A stretch of 64,000 nucleotides of DNA from Pseudanabaena sp. FACHB-2040 (GTDB lineage Bacteria > Cyanobacteriota > Cyanobacteriia > Phormidesmidales > Phormidesmidaceae), in contig NZ_JACJQO010000014.1 in NCBI RefSeq assembly GCF_014696715.1, positions 1-64,000 on the forward strand. The letters run 5' to 3'. A program made the position numbers and the translations under genes. Position 1 is the stretch's first letter; each line of letters opens with the position of its first letter. This document shows, piece after piece, positions 6,714 through 22,707 of the stretch. The notes beneath the pieces were generated by a model. That model worked only from the letters and a program-made list of their open reading frames with translations, had not been told where the DNA came from and made no database searches.

Positions 6714-6801
6714 TGCCATTCGTACAAAAGGATTCGGCCCCTCATAAAAAATAAAAAAGTAAAAAGACTCGCTTTGCTCTTTAAAATCCGGCAATTTGCT
6801 T

Positions 6802-9800
6802 ATGGATACCAGTACCAAGAAATCCAAGCGCAGTAAAGTTGCCTCTACACGAGTGAGAGGGGTGGTTCTGTCGCCGCATGGATGGCAGCGGTTTCAAGCG
6901 GCAAAACAGCAGGCAGAGTCGGAGGAAGCCTGGGGTAAGCGGTTCACGCAGGAAGATCTCATCGAGCGCACAGAACTATCCTCCAACACTCTATCCCGGA
7001 TCCTCAATCGCGAACTTGGTGTCGATCGGCAGTCGCTAGAGATCCTTTTTCAGGCATTTGGGTTAGAACTCACAAAGGCTGATTATGCACCCCCTGTCGC
7101 AGCCTCCAAAACGCTAGAGTCGCAGCGAGAAGATCCTCAGCAAGACTGGGATAGTGCGGTTGATGCCTCAGTGTTTTATGGTCGCGAAACCGAATTGGCG
7201 CAACTGTGGCAGTGGGTAGTGGCTGAACGTTGCCGCGTAGTTGGGCTACTGGGGCTTGGTGGGATTGGCAAAAGTACGATTGCCGTCAAAGCAGCGCTAC
7301 AGATGCGGTCTGAGTTTGAGATTGTGGTGTGGCGATCGCTTGCCAACGCACCCTCGTTTGATGGGCTTCTGACCAGCCTGCTGAAATTTCTGATGCCGAT
7401 TCAGGGAGATGATCCGATTATCCCGGCTACGCTCGATGAGAAGCTTGTCCTGTTGATGCAGTACTTGCGATCGCAGCGGTGTCTCTTGATTTTAGATAAC
7501 GCTGAAACCATTCTGCATAGTGAGCAGGTGGGCCAGTGGAAATCGGGCTATGAAGCTTATGGACAGTTTTTGAGGACTCTAGGAGAAACGCCCCACCAAA
7601 GCTGTTGCTTGCTAACCAGTCGCGAAAAGCCACGGGAAATCGCCCTGCTGGAGGGCGGACAGAGCGTAGTGCGATCGCTTTCTCTAAGTGGACTCACCCC
7701 CGATAATGGACGCGCCATTTTTCAGCAAAAAGGAGCGTTTACAGGTTCACAAGCCGAGTGGCAAACCCTGGTCAATCACTATGGCGGCAACCCTCTAGCG
7801 CTGAAGTTGGTTGCAGCTGCTACGCAAGATTTGTTCGACGGCAGTGTTGCAGAGGTTCTAACCTATCTTGAGCAGGGCGTTTTTGTCTTTGAAGACATCC
7901 GCGATCTGCTCGATCGCCAATTTAATCGCCTATCGGTAGAGGAACAGAAAATTCTCTACTGGTTTGCTATTCACCGAGAGCCGGTTGCGATCGCAGAGAT
8001 TCGTGAAAACGTTATCGGTACAGCCTCACAACAAACCATTCCCCAACAAGTGAATTCACTGCTCCGGCGGTCGCTACTCGAAAAAACAGACGGATTATTT
8101 TTCTTGCAGCCCGTTGTATTGGAATATGTCACAGAACGGCTGATACAACAGCTCTGTACAGAATTTACAACCCGACAGCTTGATGTATGGCACAGTCATT
8201 CATTGATTCGAGTACAGGCAAAAGACTATATCCGAGCAATGCAACTGCGATTAATTTTGCAGCCTGTAATGGAATGGCTTTTATCGGCTTACCGAAATGT
8301 GTCGGAAGTTGAAAATAGAGCAAGGCTACTTCTCGCACAACAACGGTCAGAATATGGAGCAGGATATGCGGCGGGGAATTTGATCAATCTGCTGGTGCAA
8401 CTCAAAGTAGATTTGCAAGGTTCCGATTTTTCTGAACTCGTAGTGCGGCAAGCCGACCTGCGGCAGATTAATTTAGTAGGGGTCAATTTTCAAAATTCTG
8501 ATTTAGCAACATGCCTTTTTTCAGAGACTTTGGGGGTGCCAACATCGGTTGATATCAGCCCTGATGGCCAAGTTTTTGCCGTCGGCGATATCAATGGTTT
8601 TGTGTATTTATGGAACGTTGTATCCCATCAACTCATTGCGACGTTTGAGGGGCATCGCGGTGGAGTTTGGGCGGTTGCCTTTAGTCCCAATGGCACGACA
8701 CTGGCGAGTGGTGGTAATGATGCGACGGTGCGGTTGTGGAATGTGCAAAGTGGTCAGTGTTTGTGGACTTCGACAGGGCATACGAGTCGAATTTGGTCTT
8801 TAAGCTTCAGCGCTAATCGTCAATGGTTAGCCAGTGGTAGTGATGATCAAACCGCAAGAGTGTGGAATTTACAGGGTGACTGCTTGCACGTTTTGAAAGG
8901 ACACACCAAAAACGTTTATTCCGTTCACTTCTCACCCAACCATCCAATTTTAGCCAGCGGCAGTAAGGATACCTCGATTCGGCTTTGGGATGTTGAGACT
9001 GGAAAATGCCTAAATGTGTTGGAAGGACATTCTTCCGGTATTCGCTGCGTGCGCTACAGCCCGGATGGTCAACGATTGGCAAGTGGCGGCCTCGATGGCT
9101 GCATTCAACTATGGAGTCATCCGCCTAGTTCTAAAACTCATTCATGTAATCTTGAATCATCACTGCGGGGGCATACTAACTGGGTTCGGAACACTATATT
9201 TAGTCCAGAGGGTGACACTTTAGACTGGGTTCGGAACATTGTATTTAGTCCAGAGGGTGACACTTTAGTAAGCAGCAGTGATGATGGCACCCTTCGGCTT
9301 TGGAATGTCCAAGATGGATACTGTACAAATATTCTGGGCGAGCAGACGGTATCTGCTCTAGCGCTCGCCATCAGTACCGATGGTCAGGTCTTGATCAGCG
9401 CCAACCAGGATCGAACCGTGCGGCTGTGGCAGATGCCGAGTGGGCAAAGCCTCAAAACGTTAAGCGGCTTTACCTATGGAGAACACGCCTTAAGTTTTAG
9501 TCCTGTCACAGTTACGGCAGCTCAAAATCAGAATGATTCTGCCTCAGCGGGAACTGGATCGCCGAATCAACTGTTTGCCAGTAGTAGTAGTCAAACGGGA
9601 ATGATTCACTTATGGCAATGGCCGGTAGATAGAGAGCCATTAAGTTCGCTTCCCTACAGAACCCTCTACAGAGAAACCAGCCTAATCTCAAATTTGAGCT
9701 TTAGCCCGGATGGTCAAACGATCGCCACCAATGGGGAAGATGGCTCCATTTTTCTATGGGATGTGCAAACAGGACAGGGTGATCGCTGGATTGCTCACGA

Positions 9801-10518
9801 TGCTCCCGTATTAGCGGTGCTGTTTAACCCCGTTGGGCAAACCCTGGCAAGCAGCAGCCGTGACCGAACAGTGTGTCTGTGGGATGTACAAACTCACCAA
9901 TGCTTACATGTGCTACAGGGTCATCAGAGCAGCATGCGGACGATTGCCTTTGATTCCCAAGGTCAAACTCTGGCAAGTGGTAGCTATGACCAGACGATTC
10001 GGCTATGGGACGCGCAGACCGGGGAGTGCCTACGGGTACTGGAAGGACACAAGGGCGGAGTTTACGCGCTAGCCTTTCATCCAACCGAGCCGATTCTAGC
10101 AAGCGGCAGCTTTGACCAAACCATCCGATTGTGGAACGTGCAAAGCGGAGCCTGTCTAAGAATATTAAAGGGGCATACCAGCATCGCGTTTACCATTGCT
10201 ATTAGCCCTGATGGTCAAACTATTGCCAGTGGTAGTGATGACCAAACCGTTCGCCTCTGGAATCTGGAGACAGGAGAATGCCTTCATGTGATGGGTGGAC
10301 ACGCCAGTTGGATTTCATCAGTTGTCTTCAGCCCTGACGGTCAAATTCTATTGAGTGGGAGCTTCGATCGCACCATAAAACTGTGGGATGTCCCTACAGG
10401 GCACTGTATCAAAACGGTGAAAGGCGATCGCCTCTATGAAGGCATGAATATTCAAGGCGTAACAGGGTTAACAACTGCTCAAAAAACAACATTAAGGGCC
10501 TTAGGAGCCATTTCATAG
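6802..10518 (+). CDS. STAND protein: HTH-like domain, NB-ARC NTPase, 14 WD40 repeats
   Basis: A 1238-residue signalling NTPase. Residues 1-85 form a helical HTH-like module ([21 protein letters not shown]). The NB-ARC domain follows, with P-loop GLGGIGKST (Lys about 157), Walker [10 protein letters not shown] and [10 protein letters not shown] linker helical domain precedes a pentapeptide-like stretch and then 14 WD40 units (LWNV/LWDV ends) from about residue 577, enough for two seven-bladed propellers. The sixth unit carries a 45-base tandem duplication (around 9178-9268). ATG 6802 is preferred to TTG 6796. STAND proteins use a repeat domain as ligand sensor and oligomerise on ATP binding. 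No effector such as a protease or nuclease is fused here, so the HTH-like module may be the output. Both its upstream flank and its last codons are found again at 2873-3210. Confidence 0.93.
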
Positions 10519-14366: not shown

Positions 14367-15644
14367 TTGACTGACAAAACTAGGAAACTGGAAAACGGCT
14401 CAGGACAGTGAATTAACGTTCAAAAGAGCGTTTCAGTTGCCGCTTAGAGGGGATGGCCGGTTGAGAGTCAGGCCGACTCGATAGGAACCGAACCAGTTGA
14501 ATGTGCCACTGCTGTGTGATGGCAAGACGGATCCAGTTCCAGCCCAACTTGAAATAGCTCATGCCCCTTGCCAGTGAGGGTCAACCCGCTGGCGCTGACC
14601 CGATTCAACTACCTGGGTACCCTGAAGCACCAAAAACAAGGTGGTTAGCGCCAACACTCCACAGAGCTGAGAAAGGGCAAAGGGGTCGCGCAACCGTGAC
14701 GCTTCCAGGTTAAAGCCAGCCGACTTGAGGTTAAGAAGGATTCTCCACTTGGAACCTCAGTTGATATTGGGCAAAGGTCTGCAAGGTCGTGGGTTTATCA
14801 CTGACAATCACCCAAGTCTGGTCGCTCGGCGCATCATGGGCAAAGGCCAGGTAAAGATTGGGGTAGGGCTTGATTTTACCGAGTGAAACAGGGCCTGTGA
14901 AGTGAGCCCCTCCAGGCTGTAGATGCACAGATGAGACCTAGTGCCACTGGCCTTGCCTCTGAAATTAGAAGGAGCGTTTGATGCGGATACGAAAGTGCCA
15001 GGCTAGCGTCTCCCTGAGATATTTTATCAACTTGCCATCGGCAAAGCCCCGGTCTGTCAACAGCACGACAGCCGCATTCTCGGGTAGCACCCGCTGAGCT
15101 TGCCTGAGCACCCGTTGAATCGTCAACAGTCTGACGGTGCTGCTCGATTGGCGCACGGCTTTCCAGGCAATCGGAACAGTTCTTCCCCGATAAACCACGC
15201 CTACCCAAACAATACAGAAGCAGTTCCACGCTAGTGTTGTGTCCAAACTCATATACAACCGACACTGGCCCCATTACGATAGGGCTTGTCTCACCAGAGC
15301 GTGATGGGCTGCCATACTATCGATGCGCCTATTCGAGAGCCATCGGCGAAACCGCCGTTGATGCGACTGGGCTTGCCGGGCACGGCTCTTGACGTACACC
15401 CCAAATCCACTGAGATGGACATTCTAGCTTTGGATGATGCCGATGATCATCCAGCAGAGCGTCTCAACAGGACGTCTATCGCGCCACCTAATCTCGCATT
15501 GACGCACAAATCTATTCAACGCATCATAGAGGCGGGAAGTCGGAGTCATTGCTGCAGCTGTTTGGTGTGGTAACTTCTCAGCTTAAACCAGGCTCCACTT
15601 CCCTCCCTACCTCACTTTCAGCCTCTACATCTTTTGTCAGTCAA
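14367..15644 (-). mobile_element. Degenerate IS4-like element with 13-bp terminal inverted repeats
   Basis: TTGACTGACAAAA at 14367-14379 and TTTTGTCAGTCAA at 15632-15644 are perfect inverted repeats about 1.28 kb apart. They bracket a decayed DDE transposase. No target duplication is obvious at the outer edges. The same terminal 14-mer TTGACTGACAAAAG occurs alone at 18925-18938. The element is non-autonomous now because its transposase has several stops. Confidence 0.8.
14430..15549 (-). pseudogene. IS4-like DDE transposase, multiply interrupted
   Basis: One minus-strand frame starting MTPTSRLYDALNRF at 15549 reads through helical N-terminal segments (ARQAQSHQRRFRRWLSN), the first catalytic Asp region MSLDTTLAWNCFCIVW and the second AAVVLLTDRGFADGKL. 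It continues to FRIRIKRSF, then VSSVHLQPGGAHFTGPVS and a QLRFQVENPS segment. At least four in-frame stops and C-terminal frameshifts interrupt it. The product is certainly inactive. It lies inside the terminal inverted repeats at 14367 and 15644. Confidence 0.85.
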
Positions 15645-15658
15645 TTAAGGTCTTATCC

Positions 15659-18490
15659 TTAATATAGCTGCACTGATCGCACAAATCGCTGAAGTTGCCG
15701 ACTTTCTAATTCTAAAACTCGTCGGGCAAAATCAGGATCGCGGTCAAGTAAATCATCAAAGGCATCAACAGAAATAGCCAGAATCCGGGTACTGTCGTTG
15801 CCGGTAACAATCGTATTTTCTGAGTTGCTATGAGCTAAAACCTCTAGCTCATCTAGGGTTTGTCCAGGATGAAGCTTTTCCACCCGAACCTCAGATCCAG
15901 TTTGGTAGTGAATTCTGGCATCGCCTTCCATCAACAGCAACAATTCTCGACAAGTATCTCCTGCTTCTGTGATCACGTCTCCTCGGTTGTAGGTTCTCAC
16001 CTCTGCCCGCTCAGCAAGAGCAATGAGCGTTGCACTCTGCATCCGATGGAAAAAGTCGCTATTGAATAAATAAACCAATTTCTCTAACGTTGGGAATTCG
16101 GTCAAAGATGAGTTTGCTGTTGATGATGGGTGCCAAGACAGTAGCCGATTGATAGCTTCCTGAACGACATGGGAATTGAACTGGTGACGACAATTTCGAG
16201 CGATCGCCTGACTGCGTTCTGCATCCAATTGAGCAATGACATAGAGCGCTGCCGCCTGAGTTATAGGATTTTGCTCCTGGAGCAAAGCTTCTAGATGCTC
16301 TAGAATTTCCTGAGGAGAGAATTCTAGTGAACAGGAAACAGGCATTGCTCCTGGTTGGGTTAAACATTGCAGGATCTCTGACGGCAGTCGATCGCCCCAA
16401 TTCTCCTGATCTAAAATCTCCCCTAAAATAGCAGGTGAAGCCTGTTGTAAAGACTGTGCCAAGCTTAAGGCTGCTGAATCAGACTGGAGAAGTGACAGGT
16501 TTTCCAGAATTGATCGCACAATCAGTTCTTTTTTATGAATGATGTTTTCTTGTAGCAGGGTTAAAACCGCTTTGTGCTTGTGCAGCATCGGTTGATTCAG
16601 GGCGCGGTAGCAGCCGATCAATTCCGGTAGCTGAGCAAGAAGAAACTCTGCCTTTTTGACACTACTAGAGTTGCCCGAAAATCCGCTCAGAATCCACTCT
16701 TCCTCTTGGGGAGTGATGGAATATTGGTAGCGCAGAGAACGAACAGCGGCTGAATCCTGAAATGACAACTGCTCAAATGCGGTACGGTCAGGCTGCTTGC
16801 GTTGCAGCAGTATTAACCGCTCCAATGATTTGCGGTAGCCGCTCAAGCGGATCTGATTTTCTAAGCTGCGTTGACGATCCGGATTGAGCAACTCTGGATC
16901 TTCAATACCCAATTCCTCCAACACAAGGCGGTGTTCGTCATCCGTAATGCCCAACTCCTGACGCATCTGCTGCAAAACTTCTAGACTGCTGGAGTAGTTC
17001 ACATAACCTTCTTCCAGTGCTTCTCGCACAACTCCCTTGTAGGCATGATGTCGTTTCTCTCGGGTAAAACCAGGCAGCACTTTAGCTAATACATACACTT
17101 CATGAGTATTGAGATCGCTCAGCGTCCGCCCTTCCAAAAACTGTGAAACATTAAACTGCAATTTCTCTAACTGTTTGCGGAATCGATTGGCTAGATTTTC
17201 ACGGGAATAAAGATCAGGACTGCGCCGCCAGGTTTTATAGAGCCAGAGGGTACTCAGCGTCACTAAACCCAGGTCGTAGAGGTATTGCACCGACAAAGGG
17301 AGAAGCTGTACTAGGGGACGACCCCCAAAGATGAAGAAAAAGTTGAAGATACCAAAGGTCCATAGGGTAAATAGGCGATGTCGAATGATTTCGGTCGTCA
17401 GATTTGCTTGATGTTGCTGGTTGTAAGCTTTAGCACGTTTTTCGATCCACCGTCCTCCCCAATACCCAAGTGCCGTGCATCCACCCAGCACTGCTGGAAC
17501 CGCAACCAACTTAGGAATATTAATTGCCTGTCCAAACAGGTAGAGTCCAGGATCAAGTAGTGAAGCGAGCTGATCGCTTTGCCGTAGCCACGCCCCAGAG
17601 AAGTAATAATTCCAGTTGCCCGCATAAAGATAGTAATAGCCAAAATAGCCAATCACCAAACCCACATAGCCATAGCGCAGAAATGAGGTTTCGGGTTTGT
17701 TTAAGCTGTTCCAATAGGTACGTTCAGCGTCAATATCGATGCAAGGATTTTGACAGGCTACGCAAGCACTCTGCTCTTTACCATCTGGTAGCACAGTGCG
17801 ACACATGGATTGGGTAACGAGCTGCTCGCTCGTATGGGCTTTGCTGCTCAACAAGCCTCCCGGTTCACTGTAGATACTTTGAACAGGAGCCATTGGGCAA
17901 AAGTACTGACACCAGGACTTGCCGCCGTACCAATAACCAACGGCAATCGCCGCTGCCACTGTGAACAATAACCAACCCGCTAGCACCAGGCGATCAGCGT
18001 TGAAAAACAAGATTCGCCCACATAAGCCTGCAAACAACCAGCCAAATTGCACATAGGGATAGTTCCGACCCAACCATGAATTCGGGTCAACCTTTGCCAA
18101 CTCGTAGCGCACTTTGCCAGTCTTTTTGTTCTCTCGTTTGAATTGTCGTTGCCATCCCAAAGCACGAGGAATTTGAGATAAAAAAGAGAGCGGACAAATC
18201 CGCCGCCATAACTCATGCCCAAACACCAGCAAAATAAAGATTGCGGCTGGTACAATTGCTCCCCAGAAGAGGGTAGTTCCTAACGGATAGGGCTGCTCAG
18301 ATAAGCATTTCCCCTGCACTTGTATACAGGTATCAGGAATCCGCAAGGGGCTCCAGGGGTGATCGGATACGGTGAGTGCCGATGTCCAGGGGTCATAAAA
18401 TAGGGAGGCAACGATCAGTAGCCAGCCAACAGTCAACGTCCAGCGAATCCAGTGCATTCGCCGCTCTGGCAGTTGTGCAAACATAGACAA
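15659..18490 (-). CDS. Polytopic 4Fe-4S membrane protein fused to a cyclic-nucleotide-binding domain
   Basis: A 943-residue protein. The N-terminal half resembles NapH/NosR-type membrane ferredoxins: helices near 17-31, 73-90, 145-165, 168-187 and several more to about 430. It has cysteine motifs CP at 99-100, CxxxCP at 194-199 and CVACQNPC (243-250) with Cys 230 as a likely extra ligand. A long helical linker (430-780) follows, then a C-terminal cNMP-binding beta-roll (NRGDVITEAGDTCRELLLLM, about 830-930), where the usual phosphate-binding RxA arginine is not obvious. Such proteins probably pass electrons across or along the membrane under ligand control. The upstream region has three imperfect 40-bp repeats. 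Its substrate and partners are unknown. Confidence 0.85.
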   Translation of the reverse strand: MSMFAQLPERRMHWIRWTLTVGWLLIVASLFYDPWTSALTVSDHPWSPLRIPDTCIQVQGKCLSEQPYPLGTTLFWGAIVPAAIFILLVFGHELWRRICPLSFLSQIPRALGWQRQFKRENKKTGKVRYELAKVDPNSWLGRNYPYVQFGWLFAGLCGRILFFNADRLVLAGWLLFTVAAAIAVGYWYGGKSWCQYFCPMAPVQSIYSEPGGLLSSKAHTSEQLVTQSMCRTVLPDGKEQSACVACQNPCIDIDAERTYWNSLNKPETSFLRYGYVGLVIGYFGYYYLYAGNWNYYFSGAWLRQSDQLASLLDPGLYLFGQAINIPKLVAVPAVLGGCTALGYWGGRWIEKRAKAYNQQHQANLTTEIIRHRLFTLWTFGIFNFFFIFGGRPLVQLLPLSVQYLYDLGLVTLSTLWLYKTWRRSPDLYSRENLANRFRKQLEKLQFNVSQFLEGRTLSDLNTHEVYVLAKVLPGFTREKRHHAYKGVVREALEEGYVNYSSSLEVLQQMRQELGITDDEHRLVLEELGIEDPELLNPDRQRSLENQIRLSGYRKSLERLILLQRKQPDRTAFEQLSFQDSAAVRSLRYQYSITPQEEEWILSGFSGNSSSVKKAEFLLAQLPELIGCYRALNQPMLHKHKAVLTLLQENIIHKKELIVRSILENLSLLQSDSAALSLAQSLQQASPAILGEILDQENWGDRLPSEILQCLTQPGAMPVSCSLEFSPQEILEHLEALLQEQNPITQAAALYVIAQLDAERSQAIARNCRHQFNSHVVQEAINRLLSWHPSSTANSSLTEFPTLEKLVYLFNSDFFHRMQSATLIALAERAEVRTYNRGDVITEAGDTCRELLLLMEGDARIHYQTGSEVRVEKLHPGQTLDELEVLAHSNSENTIVTGNDSTRILAISVDAFDDLLDRDPDFARRVLELESRQLQRFVRSVQLY

Positions 18491-19062: not shown

Positions 19063-22000
19063 TTATCGAAGAGCGATAGTTGGGATAGAAGAGTTAGGGT
19101 TGTTTGATTGCTTGTGAAACAGCCAGATCCCAAGGGCAGCACTAAAGCCAGAAATAACTAGTAGGCCGACCAGCCAAAACTTGATATGGCGATTAAGGTT
19201 TCTATCTGGGTGATTCTGATTGGGTTGAGGGGTATTACCAGAATATGCCCTATGAGATAACAGGTTAGTTTCTACTAGGGCTTGACTCAAAGTTTCGAGT
19301 GCTGCTGCATCGGTTAGATAGCTAAAATGATGGCAGGCTACTTCCATTGACCTCGGTATAGGGGACCGTTGTGGCGGTAAGGATCGAATGCTGTAGACTG
19401 TCGCTGCTAGGTCATTTGATTGGCTCATAAAGGGAAACTCTACCACTGTCCGGCCTACTCGATCTAGCAACCGAATGACCTGGTTGCGAGTAGCCATATT
19501 TGGTAGGGGAATGAGCGATGCATTACCTGCTATAACGGTGTAAGGAATTCCTGGGTCAGTACTATCAGCAAGAGACTTCAAGAAATCTGAGCCTGGCTTC
19601 ATCTGATCGAGGGTAACATCGACCAGCTCAATGACAGCCATCAGGCTGCCCAGCGCTTTGACAGGTAATGCAACTGAAGACAAGCTATTAAGGCCAATGG
19701 TTAGGGCGGCAGTTGCCCAGTCCTGAAGGGTCGGCCAGGGAGATCCAGCATTGGGGGTACCCAGCATAATCAAATGTTGCACAACCTGATGCCCATCCTG
19801 TTGCTCAATGAAACACCGAGCAACTAATCCCCCTAGGGAGTGAGCTATCACGTGCAAGGTTTTGCCGTGGTTGGGAGTTAGCCCTACAGTGGCTAGGCGA
19901 TCCTTCAACTGTTTGGCTAGATCAGAGATGGAGGTATTGAGGTTTTCATAGTCAAAGGTCAGCACCAAATCATACAGGCTAAGCAGAGACTGGCCTTCTT
20001 CGCCCTGGGCCTGACGGACCCCTAACACCATGCTTTGCGTATCACCAGCAATCCCGTGAAGCAGCAGCAAAATTGTCTGAGCGGCCGATATCTTCTGCGC
20101 AACAGAGCTTCGATCAGCCTCGTAGCAAAGCGTTTCCTCTATTCCTTTTCCCACTGCAGCCAGAATGGGATAGGGAAACTCAAGCCCCAGCTTTTGCGCC
20201 ACTACTTTTTGGAAGAAAATACGGATGCTGCCTCCCAGACTCCGAGTTCCTTCACCGATTGGATTTGGCAGCCGCTCTAGATAAATTTCGGTTTGGTTGC
20301 CGTGGGCCTGCCCTCGGCCTAACGGCAAAAAGAACTCTCCGTCAAAGGCAATGGGTAAAACATATTCGTGGGGTTGGAGGGCAATCGGGGCAACCAGCGT
20401 TAACGGTTGCGCGGGGGTCACAGTCTCAGCGTTGATAACGTTCTTTAGCTCAAGGACATTCAAGTCAGATTTAACGTTGCGGCTGGTTGCGAACTGCAGC
20501 GGCTGAGAGACCTGAGGATCTGCTAAAAGGAGGGGGGGCAAGCCGGGTTGATGGAGGTTACGGGTTGCGGTAGCCGTTGTTAGGCAGGCAGTACCTCGCA
20601 AACTGGGGTGCGGTTTGAGGGTTACCCCCTGCCCCAAGTCGATAGCTTGGGCCGCGTCAATCGGCGCAGTTGGTTGGGGACGGACAATGGTAAAGGTGAT
20701 TTGACTTGTCATCCAATCGTCATAAATGGTGTCTTCGGTTGCGGGGGTGAGGCTCAAGTGCCGGGTCATAACTCGCTGCATCAAACGATTTAGAGTACCC
20801 CCTCGAGTTTGGGACTGTGTTAGCGAACGCTTTAAAGGATGGCCTAGCTCATCCTGCTCTAGCAGAGTCGCATCGAAGTCGGCGGTGCAGGCAATGGCTT
20901 TGAGAATGTCGCAAAACTCGGTGACGCCCTGTTGCCACAAAACTTTGGACACATTGCCATAGATGGGCTGTCCCTGAGCGACCCAGACCTCTTCTCTGGG
21001 GTTTAGCCGCACGGTGCCCCCAATCAGTAGAGACGTGATTTGAAAGGTTTCGGTTAGGTCGTAGAGGGCGCAAAACAGCGTGAGGTCACTCTGGTTAGAG
21101 AGCTTAATGCGAAAGGTTGGCTGTTGCCACTGTTTTCGGCTGGCGTCCCATTCGTAAGCCAAACGAATCTGGGGCTGAGTCAGAGGTTCTGCCTGATTGC
21201 CGCGATAGATTTGAATGCGCAGGGCATCCGCTGGAATTTGACTGATGGTGGGGGGAGCGAGATCGGCAACGGTCATCCACCGGGCTAGCTGTTCTAGCTG
21301 GTGCACAGTTTTTGCTGCCTGATCGAGCGTATATCCCTGCAGCGGGCTCACTAGCGGAGCAGCATCGGCGGGGCGGAGGATGCTGTAAGTATTATCCTGG
21401 GCCAACACTCTTATCTGAGTTAGCTCGGTTGTCGCTGGCTCTCGCAGGTAGGGGGAGGGCTGACCGTTGGGGCTAGCGGTTTGTAGGGCTTGGCGGATCA
21501 GCTGAACAGCATCAGCATCCCCATCCAGAGAAACGGTTGTGGCTGGCAGGGGCACTGCGGTCAGCACTGCCTTGAAAACAGCCTGTGTATCGGTCAAATG
21601 CTCGCTGCCATGGGTGATACGCAGTTGGCTGAGTTGGGGAAACACTGCGACGATCTCGGCCTGTGCGATCGCACCCCCAGCATCCTTCAATAAGTCTGAG
21701 GCGATATGGAAGGGAAAGATCGCTATCTGGGGCCATTCATCAGCGCTAGGGATAGGAATGCCGTGGACGCTGCCGCTGTTGATGATCCAGCCGTGGTCAG
21801 CGCTGTAGGAAACGGTGTAGTAGACATGCGATCGAGCAATGGCTCCCCCTAAAAAGGGCTGATCTAGATCGGCTGCATGGGTGGCCTCCAGCTGAGGCGA
21901 CTGAGCGGCAACTTGACTCTGCACCCGGGCCTGAGTGCGCCTAAAGAGGTCGCGGTAGGTAAGTGGCCCACTGGTCTGTTTTAGAGTTTCCAGCAGAAAG

Positions 22001-22707
22001 TATGAGAAGGCTCCCCGGTGGGTGCCGCCGCCAAAAAATTCTCGGGCCTCTTCGTGCTCGCGGCAGGCGGCCAGCAAGACGTGACGACCTCTGGAAAATT
22101 GCCCTTGGGTAGCAGCGGGATGGGCACTCCGGGCTGCCGCAAGGGTAGAGAGGTCAGCGGACGTTAGCAGGAATGTGTCAAAAGGGCGCTGCCGCGTATC
22201 GGCTGGAACTTGCCGGGTTGCAACCGACTGTAGCGTCTTGCGCGTGCCTGTTCCAGAATGACAGCAGTCCAAAATCACGATGATGTGGGGATCGGCTTGG
22301 GCGACTTCGGCAATCAGGGCGGCTAGCTCTTTATCAGCTAGATCCCACTGCCCCTCCAGGCGGCTATCCCAGCAGACCAGGGTTTCGTTAAACCGATCGG
22401 GCTCGATGGCCCAAAACTCGGGGGGTGACGGAGCCTGAGAACCGTGCCCGCTGTAGTAGAACAGGGCGACATCGCTCGACTGGGCCTGACTCAGGTAGGT
22501 GCGAAAGCCCTCGATTATGGCTTGTCGGGTTGCCTGTTGATTGACTAGTCGGTGGGGCGGCTGTAGCACATAGCCTGAGTTATCTCGAACCCACCCGTGC
22601 AGGTATTGCTCGAAAGCTTCGATGTCATTGATGCAGCCCCGCAGCGGAGACAGAGGGCTGGGATACTGGTCAATGCCCACCAAAAAAGCGTACACATTGC
22701 GAACCAT
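19063..22707 (-). CDS. Caspase-like protease fused to lipase-type alpha/beta hydrolase, C-terminal membrane anchor
   Basis: A 1214-residue multidomain protein. Residues 1-290 form a peptidase C14 domain: VYAFLVGIDQYP, LRGCINDI, catalytic dyad His 88 (YYSGHGS) and Cys 149 (ILDCCHSG). A long middle region (300-830) has no recognised domain and looks beta-rich. A second enzyme follows at about 880-1090: TILLLLHGIAGDTQSM and the nucleophile elbow AHSLGG with Ser 957, as in lipase/PGAP1-like hydrolases, with LGTPNAGSPWP after it. A single transmembrane helix lies near 1177-1197 and a short tail follows. A protease and a possible lipid hydrolase would thus sit together on the membrane. It is divergent from the TPR/CHAT operon, with 142 bases between starts. 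The substrates are unknown. Confidence 0.9.
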   Translation of the reverse strand: MVRNVYAFLVGIDQYPSPLSPLRGCINDIEAFEQYLHGWVRDNSGYVLQPPHRLVNQQATRQAIIEGFRTYLSQAQSSDVALFYYSGHGSQAPSPPEFWAIEPDRFNETLVCWDSRLEGQWDLADKELAALIAEVAQADPHIIVILDCCHSGTGTRKTLQSVATRQVPADTRQRPFDTFLLTSADLSTLAAARSAHPAATQGQFSRGRHVLLAACREHEEAREFFGGGTHRGAFSYFLLETLKQTSGPLTYRDLFRRTQARVQSQVAAQSPQLEATHAADLDQPFLGGAIARSHVYYTVSYSADHGWIINSGSVHGIPIPSADEWPQIAIFPFHIASDLLKDAGGAIAQAEIVAVFPQLSQLRITHGSEHLTDTQAVFKAVLTAVPLPATTVSLDGDADAVQLIRQALQTASPNGQPSPYLREPATTELTQIRVLAQDNTYSILRPADAAPLVSPLQGYTLDQAAKTVHQLEQLARWMTVADLAPPTISQIPADALRIQIYRGNQAEPLTQPQIRLAYEWDASRKQWQQPTFRIKLSNQSDLTLFCALYDLTETFQITSLLIGGTVRLNPREEVWVAQGQPIYGNVSKVLWQQGVTEFCDILKAIACTADFDATLLEQDELGHPLKRSLTQSQTRGGTLNRLMQRVMTRHLSLTPATEDTIYDDWMTSQITFTIVRPQPTAPIDAAQAIDLGQGVTLKPHPSLRGTACLTTATATRNLHQPGLPPLLLADPQVSQPLQFATSRNVKSDLNVLELKNVINAETVTPAQPLTLVAPIALQPHEYVLPIAFDGEFFLPLGRGQAHGNQTEIYLERLPNPIGEGTRSLGGSIRIFFQKVVAQKLGLEFPYPILAAVGKGIEETLCYEADRSSVAQKISAAQTILLLLHGIAGDTQSMVLGVRQAQGEEGQSLLSLYDLVLTFDYENLNTSISDLAKQLKDRLATVGLTPNHGKTLHVIAHSLGGLVARCFIEQQDGHQVVQHLIMLGTPNAGSPWPTLQDWATAALTIGLNSLSSVALPVKALGSLMAVIELVDVTLDQMKPGSDFLKSLADSTDPGIPYTVIAGNASLIPLPNMATRNQVIRLLDRVGRTVVEFPFMSQSNDLAATVYSIRSLPPQRSPIPRSMEVACHHFSYLTDAAALETLSQALVETNLLSHRAYSGNTPQPNQNHPDRNLNRHIKFWLVGLLVISGFSAALGIWLFHKQSNNPNSSIPTIALR

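Follow-up and report, generated by a model that had tools for sequence, protein, structure and literature searches.

A membrane iron-sulfur-type protein with exchangeable C-terminal domains, found beside the bicarbonate transporter operon cmpABCD in some cyanobacteria

We describe a gene on the minus strand of a 64,000-nucleotide stretch of Pseudanabaena sp. FACHB-2040 DNA (contig NZ_JACJQO010000014.1, positions 1 to 64,000; hereafter the window). It encodes a membrane core of iron-sulfur type, a helical linker and a roll of the cyclic nucleotide monophosphate (cNMP) binding kind. The protein is real and conserved, and it is not just an odd fusion but one member of a modular redox family. We argue, at somewhat better than even confidence, that the family is a regulated membrane electron-transfer module, fed by ferredoxin and gated by its cytosolic domain, and that the branch of the window gene is tied to inorganic-carbon limitation. 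An earlier note, made from the sequence alone, had already recognised the fusion; the modular family, its reductase partner and the link to cmpABCD, the operon of the bicarbonate transporter BCT1, are new. The family seems to be unstudied. A literature search, mostly outside subscription journals, gave no paper that could be tied to it.

One core with exchangeable C-termini

The earlier note saw a polytopic protein of iron-sulfur type fused to a cNMP roll, and this is borne out. An AlphaFold model has about 8 membrane helices, and Pfam places cNMP_binding (PF00027) in the protein at E 1.2e-11, or 44.8 bits against a cut-off of 27.5. Fer4_5 (PF12801) scores 21.9 bits against a curated cut-off of 22, which 6 of 10 relatives reach in one set and 9 of 10 in another. 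The linker was described as helical and some 350 residues long. It is mostly helical in the model, but it is longer than that: the last helix of the model lies at about 419 and the roll at about 830, which leaves about 400 residues. Residues are numbered here from the methionine at 18484, which gives 941 residues.

Many matches in a search of the phylum span only residues 1 to about 575. Pfam assignments beyond this point show one membrane core carrying exchangeable C-termini. These are a cNMP roll without FHA (L127, and L126 from a divergent branch of small-genome cyanobacteria), FHA plus cNMP (L111-L115), EF-hands (one pair in L107, L110 and L128; two pairs in L116), a fused plant-type [2Fe-2S] ferredoxin (Fer2, in L121), or none, since Pfam gives no domain beyond the core in L103, L117, L118, L119 and L120.

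The note made its reading depend on the conservation of the cysteine motifs in homologues, and they are kept. We took the best 80 of 210 relatives, all cyanobacterial, together with the window copy. Seven core cysteines (97, 192, 196, 228, 241, 244, 248) are present in 79 of these 81 copies, the exceptions being a fragment (L029) and a frameshifted copy (L033). They are also present in 54 of 54 further copies, three of them from Rhizobium/Agrobacterium plasmids; 45 were scored by pattern and 9 by eye, where an adjacent residue or the spacing differed. The same seven are invariant across 30 diverse cores, of which the other 29 are 35-88% identical to the window copy. With C53 and C60 added, all nine are invariant in 55/55 aligned full-length relatives. 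We infer from the pattern of C228, C241, C244 and C248 that these four hold a [4Fe-4S] cluster.

At E <= 1e-10, 50 of 386 genomes of the phylum, from 35 of 143 genera, have the core, so its distribution is patchy. It must be noted that some of these genomes may duplicate organisms among the 80 loci. The Pseudanabaena sp. FACHB-2040 genome has a single copy. The core is also carried on plasmids, with 36 such records (25 Rhizobium, 7 Leptolyngbya, 2 Agrobacterium, 1 Synechocystis, 1 Kovacikia), and the rhizobial plasmids include conjugative ones; Synechocystis sp. PCC 6714 has a plasmid copy. A genome from the same family as the source (G215, contig 45, 3382-3510) has what may be a remnant: 43 residues that match the C-terminal end of the protein at 67%, in a reading frame interrupted by stops.

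Electron-donor partners

It is worth considering what lies next to the core. Forty regions around cores were picked by hand from core-bearing genomes to cover its forms, and they are not a random sample. A reductase gene directly follows the core on the same strand in 8 of the 40 (L163, L164, L167, L195-L198, L200). Pfam finds FHA, FAD_binding_6, NAD_binding_1 and Fer2 in 7 of these 8 reductases; the other, in L198, was judged by eye, and there 24 bases separate the two genes. In a ninth region, L210, the reductase shows no FHA in the scanned frame, and it lies beside a truncated core and a ferredoxin-like match. In L168 a ferredoxin gene adjoins the core. No reductase was found in the regions of L199 and L201, two further cores that likewise lack a C-terminal domain.

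Two arrangements in Leptolyngbya boryana have a protein kinase, the core and the FHA-reductase in tight order. On conjugative plasmids of Rhizobium etli and Agrobacterium fabrum (L181, L183) a core with FHA and an FHA-less reductase share one strand, and a response regulator, an ATP-binding protein and a cytochrome c peroxidase lie divergently on the opposite strand. Three other Rhizobium plasmids have the core alone, with no such reductase annotated nearby. As a separate observation, the kinase-core-FHA-reductase sets of the L. boryana plasmids (L186, L187 and L194, the last being a second record of the first arrangement) lie near CHRD-domain or calcium-binding proteins and look like a phosphorylation-controlled redox operon.

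At E <= 1e-40 the reductase is found in 14 of the 386 genomes, and all 14 belong to the 50 that have a core match; in G278 this match is to a fragment only. The hypergeometric probability is 6e-14, or 1.5e-9 by genus, with relatedness not corrected. The two genes are not adjacent in 5 of the 14 (G105, G143, G280, G296, G346). Electron transfer is backed by relatives that have a fused ferredoxin, an adjacent ferredoxin or an adjacent NAD(P)H-FAD-[2Fe-2S] reductase. A regulatory role of the C-terminus finds support in the swapping of cNMP, EF-hand and FHA domains on a single core.

An altered phosphate-binding cassette in the roll

In canonical cNMP rolls, such as those of PKA and CRP, the phosphate-binding cassette has a glutamate followed by an arginine 9 or 10 residues on. 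The earlier note could not see this arginine, and rightly so. The window protein has serine at E+9 and glutamate at E+10. The cassette glutamate is kept in 55/55 aligned relatives, and the arginine is found in 0/76 cyanobacterial copies of this branch at the PKA-like +9 position and in 1/76 at the CRP-like +10 position. Five of the 81 copies (L024, L029, L033, L042, L072) are fragments or frameshifted and cannot be scored for the roll. In other branches the +9 arginine is kept in L111, L114, L122, L124 and L126; it is not kept in L112, L113 or L127. This implies that cyclic-nucleotide binding may be ancestral, and that it may have been lost or changed in the window branch. The note suggested electron transfer gated by a ligand. 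The transfer and the C-terminal regulation have support, but gating by cyclic AMP or cyclic GMP is unsupported because the arginine is missing in nearly all copies of the branch.

Association with cmpABCD

The gene recurs beside cmp genes. They, or remnants of them, lie within 709 bp of it in 11 of the 80 loci, two of the 11 being remnants; at least 900 bases flank the gene on both sides in 69 of the 80. It comes directly after cmpD on the same strand in L015, L022, L037, L064, L069, L076 and L080, though in L022 and L064 cmpD is the sole cmp gene on the contig. It precedes cmpA in L020 and is divergent from cmp in L071. In L006 (6735-6950) and L051 (5573-5930) short or broken stretches of cmpD adjoin the core gene and are signs of a former cmp block. 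Some GC-rich loci, L069 among them, were misread in neighbour clustering and were recovered by tblastn. Of the 40 chosen regions, 5 (L174, L175, L176, L209, and L206 with a frameshifted copy) also have cmp genes next to the core. Of the 16 cmp-linked copies, 15 were scanned with Pfam and every one of these has the cNMP roll, and no EF-hand, FHA or tail-less form was seen linked to cmp among the loci and chosen regions. A quick tree scatters the linked copies over several branches.

One could read the linked operon as the nitrate transporter nrt. We reject this, since the binding protein of L080 scores 629 bits against CmpA (PDB 2i48) and 431 against NrtA (2g29). The source genome has a CmpA-like gene on a separate contig (C10, 64% identity). 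Scored at about E 1e-155 with at most four candidates per genome, CmpA-like matches occur in 34 of the 50 core genomes against 50 of the 336 coreless ones (Fisher 2e-14). We give this association little weight because of the four-candidate limit and because the set includes non-photosynthetic lineages.

Part of PMC13249358 describes an induction of cmp when carbon is low in light, with CmpR acting under low carbon and/or high light. A passage of PMC8438413 calls the means by which light switches on cyanobacterial bicarbonate uptake still elusive.

Predicted topology and comparison with known systems

The full model has a mean predicted local distance difference test (pLDDT) score of 75; a core-only model has 77, with a predicted template modelling (pTM) score of 0.81. 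A plain hydropathy scan gives 6 peaks against the 8 membrane helices of the model. Lysine plus arginine counts per loop are 9 in 97-136, 6 in 187-263 and 6 in 420-440 on one side. On the opposite side they are 2 in 28-67, 0 in 162-164, 1 in 289-324 and 1 in 387-396, with none in 1-6 or 358-363. By these counts the seven core cysteines and the entire C-terminus should face the cytosol, and C53 and C60 the outside.

In Foldseek the full model is matched to SLC9C1 and HCN channels, which also join a membrane part to a cytosolic cNMP roll. The best E is 9.6e-9. At TM-scores of about 0.13, the agreement probably does not go beyond the roll and the overall layout. The core alone gives nothing below E 0.4, and re-alignment of the Foldseek matches with VIA-align gives none above Z 4.4. 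We do not claim a new fold for the core because its model is of middling confidence.

The earlier note called the protein NapH/NosR-like. Escherichia coli NapH is also a polytopic membrane protein with CPL and CxxxCP motifs and further cysteines after them, and hhalign matches the CxxxCP patch (30 columns, probability 36%). The likeness holds for this short patch, but not for the two CxxCxxCxxxC clusters that follow the second CxxxCP of NapH; the window protein has one C-x12-C-x2-C-x3-C instead. NapH has two CxxxCP motifs, whereas the window family has the second and carries W for the leading cysteine of the first in 30/30 aligned cores. The large regulatory C-terminus also sets the window protein apart from the NapH/NosR-type membrane ferredoxins (Pfam Fer4_5).

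In EF-hand-regulated NADPH oxidases such as NOX5, membrane electron transfer is under a Ca2+-binding domain. We note a likeness of working only, and claim no kinship: a cytosolic flavin or iron-sulfur donor, and a Ca2+ domain in the EF-hand forms. Unlike NOX5, the window protein has no flavin domain by Pfam, and the donor would be a separate protein or a fused ferredoxin. It also differs from the BCT1 components in that a Pfam scan gives it no ABC-transporter or binding-protein domain.

The protein may or may not correspond to Synechocystis slr0593. That gene is called a 'cAMP binding membrane protein' in part of PMC3516471, whose iron-starvation data were not used. The genes around the S. salina copy were not in the order expected for slr0593.

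The gene and its surroundings

The open reading frame spans 15659-18490 on the minus strand and gives 943 residues if a TTG is taken as the start. The ATG at 18484, residue 3 of that form, is the likelier start because many relatives have a start codon there and a purine-rich stretch lies upstream. Table 1 gives the coordinates. The segment at about 420-560 is not shared by L120 or by a short R. leguminosarum form.

Table 1. Coordinates of the gene and its parts in the window
Feature	Position	Strand	Evidence
Coding sequence, 941 residues: membrane iron-sulfur core, helical linker, cNMP-type roll	15659..18484	-	ORF calling, start comparison
Membrane core, residues 1-430, common to whole family; about 8 helices in model, 6 hydropathy peaks	17195..18484	-	
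Helical domain, residues ~421-560, kept in most family members whatever the C-terminus	16805..17224	-	core alignment
Variable helical linker, residues ~561-800	16085..16804	-	weak HEAT_2 match, E 0.057; model
cNMP-binding roll	15737..15997	-	Pfam cNMP_binding, model, Foldseek
HELWRRICPL motif, invariant C97	18188..18217	-	alignment
GKSWCQYFCPM motif, invariant C192 and C196, Fer4_5-like CxxxCP	17891..17923	-	Pfam, alignment, hhalign
C228-x12-C241-x2-C244-x3-C248-x-DID, putative [4Fe-4S] ligands, predicted cytosolic side	17729..17803	-	alignment; cluster type putative
C53-x6-C60, loop predicted outside; 55/55 cNMP-type relatives, not all cores	18305..18328	-	alignment
Altered phosphate-binding cassette (LDELEVLAHSNSENT), glutamate kept, arginine absent	15812..15856	-	alignment

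Short open reading frames lie near the 3' end of the gene (14965-15258 and 14876-15274, both minus strand); by eye, one resembles a piece of a transposase, which could be relevant to the mobility of the gene. Two larger neighbours were also judged by eye. A 1214-residue protein (19063-22707, minus strand) has a caspase/metacaspase-like start, followed at some point by a segment resembling a lipase, and is hydrophobic over a stretch close to its C-terminus. A 1240-residue protein (6796-10518, plus strand) has an NB-ARC-like ATPase and WD40 repeats, with one short segment apparently duplicated.

Mechanism and alternatives

We propose that the putative [4Fe-4S] cluster would take electrons from a [2Fe-2S] ferredoxin. 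The donor would be the dedicated flavin-ferredoxin reductase in part of the family; in the source genome the photosynthetic ferredoxin pool is more likely, since the reductase was not found there. The C97/C192/C196 site may help hand electrons on to an acceptor within the membrane or on its far side, perhaps a quinone, which is plausible given that the seven cysteines are predicted to face the cytosol. In R. etli and A. fabrum, on the other hand, the neighbouring cytochrome c peroxidase would speak for an outward acceptor. The C-terminal domain would switch the flow, by Ca2+ in the EF-hand forms, by phosphorylation in the FHA forms and by a small ligand, which need not be cyclic AMP, in the cNMP form. 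In the branch of the window gene the module could be an electron outlet when BCT1 is induced, or could exert redox control on BCT1. Both fit the induction of cmp described in PMC13249358, and the two are not separable here.

Several points weigh against this reading. The reductase is missing at E <= 1e-40 from 36 of the 50 core genomes, that of the window included, so another donor would be needed there, most naturally ordinary ferredoxin. Neither the reductase nor cmp turned up in the eight EF-hand-type regions. No cmp gene was found in the DNA examined around 69 of the 80 loci, nor in the window. Of the 50 core genomes, 16 lack a CmpA-like match at the above threshold, and cNMP-type cores occur among these 16 (G011, G042, G284). 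All seven cysteines are on one predicted side and the acceptor is putative; no haem site was noticed in the protein, though no search aimed at haem sites was made. The roll may bind nothing, since its cassette arginine is missing, and may act just in contacts with other proteins. Model confidence is middling, and the cluster loop has a pLDDT below 50.

One can imagine a bolder scenario, which we consider rather unlikely. Here the family would be a horizontally spread set of plug-in membrane electron valves, in which a ferredoxin-fed core has swapped tails for Ca2+, phospho-protein, cyclic-nucleotide-like ligands or a built-in ferredoxin. Its cNMP branch would be the missing redox link of BCT1, draining or sensing over-reduced ferredoxin at low CO2 through a ligand in a re-made, arginine-less pocket. 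It is unlikely, too, that the protein is simply a redox sensor or regulator of BCT1, with the core sensing ferredoxin or quinone and the roll relaying this with a metabolite signal to CmpABCD as the light switch-on. The position of the gene, mostly directly after cmpD on the same strand, argues for such a role, as does a statement in part of PMC13249358 that native BCT1 is inactive in E. coli. However, most loci have no cmp linkage, and relatives with a dedicated reductase resemble electron-transfer enzymes rather than sensors. BCT1 must also work without the core, since 50 of 336 coreless genomes have a strong CmpA-like match. The same part of PMC13249358 already puts BCT1 under nitrate (acting on CmpC) and the protein SbtB, and a passage of PMC8438413 considers thioredoxin-type redox control of plasma-membrane transporters unlikely.

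The patchy core could also be a mobile accessory that plays no part in carbon uptake, its cmp linkage reflecting the transfer of one gene block. Its presence on cyanobacterial and conjugative rhizobial plasmids fits this, the cmpD pieces in L006 and L051 suggest broken-up blocks, and horizontal transfer of cmp is reported in part of PMC13249358. Against it stand the conservation of all core cysteines and a linkage found in several branches of the tree and in more than one orientation, and we regard this reading as quite improbable. We think it about as improbable that the protein is a metal or other reductase, or a maturation factor like CcoG, reducing a metal or assembling a cofactor for another membrane complex. 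The borderline Fer4_5 match speaks for such a role. The CcoG/RdxA/FixG match (TIGR02745, residues 164-214 of the 943-residue form) is weak and not significant at 9.4 bits and E 0.45 against a cut-off of 316.7. No metal or oxidase gene was seen among the recurrent neighbour clusters, which were read by eye with the GC-rich loci partly misread. Neither the regulatory domains nor the pairing with a reductase would be explained. A regulated, ferredoxin-fed electron-transfer module remains the reading we prefer.

Implications

A conserved iron-sulfur-type membrane protein beside cmpABCD in some cyanobacteria is a concrete candidate for light control of bicarbonate uptake. More broadly, a single membrane redox core able to take on EF-hand, FHA, cNMP or ferredoxin tails would amount to a natural series of electron-transfer proteins under regulation.

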